A stretch of 37,030 nucleotides of DNA from a virus: IMG/VR virus record IMGVR_UViG_3300023222_000086, positions 1 through 37,030 of that record. One strand, 5' to 3'. The notes beneath the pieces were generated by a model that made no database searches, had not been told where the DNA came from, and worked only from the letters and a program-made list of their open reading frames with translations. This document shows, piece after piece, positions 24,307 to 25,786 of this stretch. Numbering within the stretch: position 1 is the first letter of the stretch; every line of letters starts with the position of its first letter. Position numbers and translations under genes: made by a program.

Positions 24307-24939
24307 TTATAAACCCTCTGGAATGTATGTTGAATAACAAGTGGCTGATTCTGGTCTTTGCCCGGTAGTTCCGAAATTAACAGAGCCCTGTACCGTAACT
24401 TTTAATGAAGTCTTGAATACTTGGCCTATATTACTATCCATTAAAGTTTGTATTGATGAAGGTAAGTTTAATACTGCTTCGGTTAAGCTGAACCCACCAT
24501 CTAAACTAGAGCCTCTGCCTGTTGCTGTTGTTGCTAATCCTGTGCTTTTATATCCATCATAAAAACCTAGTAAGAATCTATCCTCTGTTGATACGGATAT
24601 AGTCGGAGATATGTAGGTTGTTTCCACTCCGTCAATAGTTACTCTTATAGTGACAGTACCAGATGCGCTTAATGAAGGTGAAATAACTTGAGTTAATACA
24701 CCGTCACCACTTACATCAATGATGGTTTGCTCTGCCGTACCAGTGGCTACAGTAAAGGATACGCTCTCCCAACCAAAGGCGGTATGACTTACATCTATAG
24801 CATCCCAAAATGTTGACGCTGAATCTGCAACACTGGTGGACATTACTGACTTTAAAGTTAGATTGCCTAATGTAGTGACAGCTTGAGGGAATGTAAGACT
24901 CCCACTACCTCCGCCAACTATTGAACTTAATAATGTCAT
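24307..24939 (-). CDS. Tail-associated beta-rich protein
   Basis: 210 aa, rich in Ser, Thr, Val and Gly. It begins with a Gly-Gly-Gly-Ser-Gly-Ser flexible start, and a probable immunoglobulin-like region (residues 85-115, SASGTVTIRVTIDGVETTY) sits in the middle. It overlaps the tail-fibre gene by 4 nt and is probably a short fibre or cap attached through it. No family is recognised. Confidence 0.65.
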   Translation of the reverse strand: MTLLSSIVGGGSGSLTFPQAVTTLGNLTLKSVMSTSVADSASTFWDAIDVSHTAFGWESVSFTVATGTAEQTIIDVSGDGVLTQVISPSLSASGTVTIRVTIDGVETTYISPTISVSTEDRFLLGFYDGYKSTGLATTATGRGSSLDGGFSLTEAVLNLPSSIQTLMDSNIGQVFKTSLKVTVQGSVNFGTTGQRPESATCYSTYIPEGL

Positions 24940-25649
24940 GATACCTGCGCTCCTACTACTTCTAGTATTGTTGTGGTTTTAGCCACTAGTTGTACGGAAT
25001 TCCCGATAGCTAACTCTAAAGGTGTACCTGCTGCTATTGTTCCGTTAGGCCCTTTAATTGTTAAAGCTGCGTTTGTTATTGATATGATACCCGTGGATAC
25101 TGATTCACTGTGAATAGTAATTGAATCACCGACCGCGTAAGCAGTTTTAAAGACAGGAACCATAGCGCCGCCTGAATTATCCATTTGATACTGGCTGTTA
25201 GCCTCTACCGTAAAGTTATCTGATTTATTTATCCACGGACTAGGTAATAATACTTTATTCCAAAACCCTGTCGTTAATGTTGGATCGTTGCCTTGGTTTC
25301 CGTTTGATTCTGACTCATAAAAGAATCCATCCGAACCTTTAACAAAATCACCTTTACTATAAACCACGTTAGGGTTCCATATAGAGAAATTACCAAGCCC
25401 AACCTCTTCACCTATAGGACTTGTTGATTCGTACTGCTCGCCGAATTCATCAAGGAATACCGCCCTAGCTGAACCGCTAAAGAATATGCTTGGCAGATTA
25501 CCATCAGCGTCAACATTAATAGATAATTCATGAGGTATAGTTTCTAAATTATCCTTGAATGTTATCTTTGGTGTATTGGTAGATGCGTCAAAAAAGCTTA
25601 CGCTTCCTAACGGCTTTATTTCAGTGATCGGACTAATAAACCTAGAGAT
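24936..25649 (-). CDS. Tail fibre N-terminal (virion-attachment) protein with non-standard start
   Basis: 237 aa if started at ATC 25649. The N-terminal 60 residues have the pattern of phage tail-fibre attachment domains: SRFISPITEIKPLGSVSFFD, then STNTPKITFKDN, NVDADGNLPSIFFSGSARAV and LDEFGEQYE. A chitin-binding-like motif WNPNVVYSKGDFV and FFYES follow at about residues 90-115. GTG at 25367 would drop this domain. A Shine-Dalgarno AAAAAAGGAG stands 6 nt before the ATC. The only nearby ATG (25653) meets TAG after two codons. Confidence 0.7.
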   Translation of the reverse strand: MSRFISPITEIKPLGSVSFFDASTNTPKITFKDNLETIPHELSINVDADGNLPSIFFSGSARAVFLDEFGEQYESTSPIGEEVGLGNFSIWNPNVVYSKGDFVKGSDGFFYESESNGNQGNDPTLTTGFWNKVLLPSPWINKSDNFTVEANSQYQMDNSGGAMVPVFKTAYAVGDSITIHSESVSTGIISITNAALTIKGPNGTIAAGTPLELAIGNSVQLVAKTTTILEVVGAQVS

Positions 25650-25671
25650 ACATTTCTCCTTTTTTAACGTG

Positions 25672-25680
25672 TGCTATACT
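25672..25680 (+). promoter_or_regulatory. Extended -10 promoter for a membrane micropeptide
   Basis: TGCTATACT (25672-25680) on the plus strand is an extended -10 element 25 nt before ATG 25706. It sits in the gap before the tail-fibre gene and reads against it. Confidence 0.5.
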
Positions 25681-25705: not shown

Positions 25706-25786
25706 ATGATTGAATTATTTTTAGCATACCTATTACTTTGTGCTGTTGTCGGTATTGCTGCTGGCGTTATTGACTCATATAAGTAA
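25706..25786 (+). CDS. Plus-strand membrane micropeptide inside the minus-strand block
   Basis: 26 aa: one hydrophobic segment with Ala, Gly and Val, ending DSYK. It has a promoter-like element in front and fits exactly between two minus genes (stop at 25786, neighbour stop at 25791). Coding is plausible but unproven. Confidence 0.45.
   Translation: MIELFLAYLLLCAVVGIAAGVIDSYK

Follow-up and report, generated by a model that had tools for sequence, protein, structure and literature searches.

An AUC start codon very probably used by the tailspike adaptor gene of a P22-like podovirus and recurring in related phage lineages

Translation of the tailspike adaptor gene of the phage studied here very probably starts at an AUC codon (25649, minus strand), as judged from sequence comparison. 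AUC stands at the equivalent position in three related phage lineages, so that it appears to reflect genuine, recurrent use of a very uncommon start signal and not a sequencing slip. The stretch of DNA analyzed (the window; 37,030 nucleotides of IMG/VR virus record IMGVR_UViG_3300023222_000086) has matches to P22-like portal, coat, tail accessory, and tail stabilization genes, and the phage is a P22-like podovirus. The gene at 24936 to 25649 (minus strand), 237 aa from the ATC, is by its open frame and homologues an intact tailspike adaptor (head-binding) gene. Its leader and start read ACGTTAAAAAAGGAGAAATGTATCTCTAGGTTTATTAGTCCG, and the start region on the minus strand is ...ACGTTAAAAAAGGAG AA ATG T ATC TCT AGG TTT ATT AGT CCG..., with the proposed start codon ATC at 25647 to 25649.

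The adaptor frame is open for 245 codons, from a stop just above 25673 to 24936 (minus strand), and its first ATG, GTG, or TTG is the GTG at 25367, 102 codons in. Homology spans the N-terminus, no usual start codon keeps this conserved part, and a start at GTG 25367 would remove the entire conserved head-binding domain. An earlier sequence-only reading had pointed to the missing start as far as this GTG, and a check of the minus-strand sequence and ORFs bore out both the absence and all of the coordinates given. When the window was scanned for homology from stop to stop, all other genuine genes lost at most about 14 residues before their first usual start, the other long losses listed being antisense frames of real genes. 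The adaptor was the only real gene with a large loss in the window and in the contigs of L005, L084, and L098, whose loss lists are filled by antisense frames and were sorted by hand. The next ORF downstream in the ORF list (24307 to 24939, minus strand; 210 aa) has an ATG overlapping the adaptor stop codon (ATGA) and is probably translationally coupled to the adaptor.

The first ~76 residues of the protein (from RFISP onward; 25416 to 25643, minus strand) represent a domain that stands at the start of tailspike genes. The family profile matched the solved head-binding domains of the tailspikes of cyanophage Pam1 (7eeq, E value of 3e-5) and Pan3 (9vyg, E value of 9e-5), and a Foldseek search with a predicted model of modest confidence (pLDDT 73, pTM 0.37) matched 9vyg and 7eeq, with weaker matches to P22 tailspike head-binding domains. 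The likeness to the Pam1, Pan3, and P22 gp9 tailspikes lies in this profile and fold match of the N-terminal domain, whereas the window protein is short, has no enzymatic body, and shows low sequence identity. Profile matches to TAL effectors, papillomavirus E2, and PLK1 covered only a few residues and were set aside. The gene adjoins ejection genes, its phage has a P22-like portal, coat, and tail hub, and the homologous tailspike of Pseudoalteromonas phage H6/1 comes after three annotated ejection proteins. Searches for similar DNA in phages and plasmids gave no match, and neither a single-protein scan of viral contigs nor the genome contigs (prophages) yielded a relative. Relatives were obtained from viral contigs by a neighbor-gene scan and family alignments; the homologues match the window adaptor at the N-terminus, and L081, L084, L086, L089, and L096 match it also at the C-terminus. 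In nine Vibrio crassostreae phage records, the region of the head-binding domain carries no annotated feature, and in the two that were read, L221 and L228 (MW824392 and MW824388; loci 2941 and 1441), the annotated gene begins about 690 nt downstream despite an ordinary ATG. These records were rejected as cases of nonusual starts, as a normal ATG was read in their sequences.

Relatives in the P22-like group share the adaptor N-terminus M-(A/S/P)-R-F-(I/V/L)-x-P, and the ATC of the window aligns codon for codon with their ATG or TTG start. Among 74 distinct leaders, 68 have ATG, 2 have TTG (L081 and L082), and 4 have ATC (the window, L098, L084, and L087). L088, from a second metagenome, has a leader identical to that of L087 and also starts with ATC, while L219, added later, starts with ATG. 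ATC is the only nonusual codon at the homologous start position, with no ATT, ATA, or CTG there in the 74 leaders. In every ATC lineage the codon stands two codons ahead of the invariant R-F of the domain, and the residue encoded after it (Ser, Gly, or Pro) is small, like those following the ATG of relatives. In-frame stops occur 4 to 8 codons upstream of the ATC in these lineages, and a long N-terminal extension is therefore impossible; the few residues in between are not conserved. Fusion to the upstream gene is ruled out by a gap of 117 to 141 nt containing stops. A search with a degenerate ATC-start pattern yielded known members and two chance matches (L212 and L213). When the remaining structural genes of the window were compared with their homologues in the same loci, the homologous starts were ATG in 53 cases, GTG in 8, and TTG in 2, with a usual start nearby in a further 26; one AGA start was a spurious alignment of an internal stretch. 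No ATC-type start was found in the other structural genes of the same phages in 89 comparisons, against 4 ATC and 17 other starts in the adaptor set (P ~0.001, for sequences that are related). The comparison with relatives, which the sequence-only reading had called for, settles the choice in favor of the ATC start and strongly supports its proposed product, (M)SRFISP.

All four ATC lineages carry a Shine-Dalgarno (SD) sequence spaced 6 to 8 nt from the ATC (AAGGAG, AAGGGAG, AAGGAGGG, and AAGGAGG). In the window, the AAGGAG at 25656 to 25661 (minus strand) lies 6 nt before ATC 25649, as previously proposed, and its predicted duplex with the anti-SD sequence has an energy of -8.7 kcal/mol, a value reached at about 3% of window positions. 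Anti-SD energies range from -8.4 to -16.7 in the ATC leaders versus a median of -5.9 in the ATG leaders, and the difference between the ATC leaders and the 16 closest non-ATC leaders has a P value of 0.009 in a small sample that is not fully independent. The ATG leaders of L085 and L116 also carry strong SDs. The trend has the same direction as the published compensation of weak start codons by stronger SDs (PMC5622118). Predicted mRNA folding around the start did not separate ATC from ATG leaders, and no match to a tRNA, Rfam family, sigma-70-like promoter, or terminator was found.

Sequence comparison thus shows the position of the proposed start, that the protein downstream of it is conserved, that ATC recurs in relatives, and that the SDs are strong, and initiation with fMet at AUC is consistent with every ATC lineage. 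A good and well-spaced SD would hold the 30S subunit over AUC 25649, where the initiator fMet-tRNA would pair with the first two bases and mismatch at the third, giving a product that begins fMet-Ser-Arg-Phe-Ile-Ser-Pro. Laboratory bacteria initiate only weakly at AUC, a shortcoming that the strong SD would offset. Initiation factor IF3 in vitro accepts no pairing other than Watson-Crick at codon positions 1 and 2 and, at the third, prefers stronger pairs and excludes weak ones (PMC10158994); AUC should therefore be IF3 sensitive. Initiation at this codon would be slower than from AUG, and its rate may limit the adaptor, and with it the gene coupled to it downstream, to a modest level, so that adaptor output may be lower and possibly IF3 sensitive.

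A programmed +1 frameshift would also bring the conserved domain into frame. In this scheme, translation would begin at ATG 25653 (or at ATG 25707, in the same frame) and slip at CTC-TAG-G to give MYLRFISP..., as at the release factor 2 gene prfB. The stop codon does come after a Leu codon near an SD-like sequence, as in prfB, and in each of the four ATC lineages the closest ATG is in the frame that needs a +1 shift. However, CTC-TAG-G is confined to the window; even L098, which shares the leader, has ATG TAT CTC ACG, so that the conserved pair of slippery codon and stop expected of a prfB-type site is absent from the relatives. The window lacks the CUU-U slip of prfB, slippage in the P site from CUC to UCU is unfavorable, and the SD spacing suits AUC initiation, with ATG 25653 only 2 nt from the SD. 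Nor does the upstream frame have a start codon served by a separate ribosome-binding site; L084 and L087 have no equivalent, their SDs lying downstream of the ATG. The N-termini would further differ in length from lineage to lineage, and ATC would have recurred at the homologous start position by coincidence. We consider frameshifting, one of the possibilities raised by the sequence-only reading, very unlikely. The distance of the nearest upstream ATG from the ATC (25653 and 25707 on the minus strand, and the leaders of L084, L087, and L098) is 1 modulo 3 each time, and these ATGs open short ORFs overlapping the start region. Their common frame possibly reflects chance (about 1 in 9 to 1 in 27), a decoy, or coupling. 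In the window, the mini-ORF ATG TAT CTC TAG (MYL; 25642 to 25653, minus strand) overlaps the ATC start and is a possible decoy; its stop is not kept in L098.

A sequencing or assembly error hiding an ordinary ATG, the third explanation that had been offered, is conceivable for a metagenome assembly in which a one-base change would yield a usual start. Such an error would need to have arisen repeatedly, in four lineages and in two metagenomes. L098, assembled independently, has the leader GGAGAAATGTATCTC as well, and ATC recurs in L084 and in L087/L088 behind unrelated leaders. The long versions of L087 and L088 (L005/L008), from two metagenomes, differ at 3 of 19,281 bases (99.98% identical) and both have ATC, and the SD spacing suits ATC in all lineages. 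Comparison of the contigs largely excludes an error, and we give it a very small probability. It is hardly more plausible that the gene is decaying or unexpressed, with start loss as an ordinary inactivating mutation and its role passing to another tail protein. In favor of decay, a weak start is expected of AUC and the window protein lies on a long branch. Against it, the frame of 245 codons is intact, conservation extends over the domain residues and the C-terminal part, the SD is retained at the right spacing, and decay would not pick ATC in each of four lineages.

Initiation at AUC may have arisen more than once. A protein tree built from 23 domains requires the start codon to have changed five times or more (ATC and TTG together), and a single ATC clade is rejected. 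L098 (ATC) pairs with L099 (ATG), and L087 (ATC) pairs with L085 (ATG); the adaptor domains of the latter two are 97% identical in protein, whereas their upstream 100 nt are only 47% identical. The window and L098 have their leader in common, and the possible number of independent ATC origins is therefore given as two to four. Leader recombination is likely. The leader pattern had 29 matches in viral contigs, and only the match in L200 (= L098) stands ahead of an adaptor gene.

Between the adaptor and the ejection-type gene upstream of it, a gap of 141 nt contains an antisense ORF of 26 aa (25706 to 25786, plus strand; MIELFLAYLLLCAVVGIAAGVIDSYK), which is hydrophobic and resembles a single membrane span. 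Antisense ORFs of 24 to 48 aa occur in the same gap in L081, L082, L083, L086, L087, L089, L092, L096, L098, L099, L116, and L117; they are mostly hydrophobic and largely unrelated in sequence. L085, unlike L087, has no gap to the upstream gene, and a cassette of leader and mini-gene appears to have been swapped or lost between the two. In P22, sieA/immI occupies this slot, and we would guess that the antisense ORF may have a role in superinfection exclusion. A motif, TGTGCTA(C/T)ACT, lies at 25670 to 25680 (plus strand) just upstream of the adaptor SD and is kept in L081, L082, L086, L089, L116, and L219. It looks like the extended -10 element of a promoter for the antisense mini-gene, and a sigma-70 consensus scan did not call it.

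Start codons of the AUN type other than AUG are a known but rare kind. The IF3 gene infC starts at ATC in Streptomyces and at ATT in Escherichia coli, in both cases with an AUN codon read by the initiator tRNA (PMC5472188). However, infC is a cellular, autoregulated gene, whereas here the gene is a phage structural gene whose close relatives use ATG or TTG. Streptomyces sigR, which has a GTC start and an extended SD, is repressed by IF3 and was missed by annotation (PMC5472188). It shares with the phage adaptor a noncanonical start and a long ribosome-binding site, AGGAGGTG (PMC5472188), but differs in its codon and in that its regulation is experimental, while that of the adaptor is inferred. 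In a reconstruction of 61,358 ancestral AUG starts, switches to GUG (363), UUG (113), CUG (2), and AUU (1) were found and none to AUC (PMC5622118), an absence to which annotation bias contributes. What appears to be new here is a phage virion gene using AUC in several lineages, with close ATG or TTG relatives and leaders with strong SDs. No earlier report of an AUC start in a phage structural gene was found among the open-access papers searched.

AUC starts are among the rarest known, and here ATC recurs across four lineages in one phage structural gene that has ATG in near relatives. Tentatively, and with a rather low probability, AUC may be a repeatedly evolved translational control in P22-like phages, in which an IF3-repressed start with a strong SD would restrict or postpone expression of the adaptor and of the gene coupled to it downstream until conditions for initiation shift late in infection; the ATG mini-ORF that overlaps the start may serve as a decoy. 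The natural series of ATG, TTG, and ATC leaders offers a test of how SD strength compensates for a poor start codon, and gene finders limited to ATG, GTG, and TTG would truncate or miss the head-binding domain in such phages.
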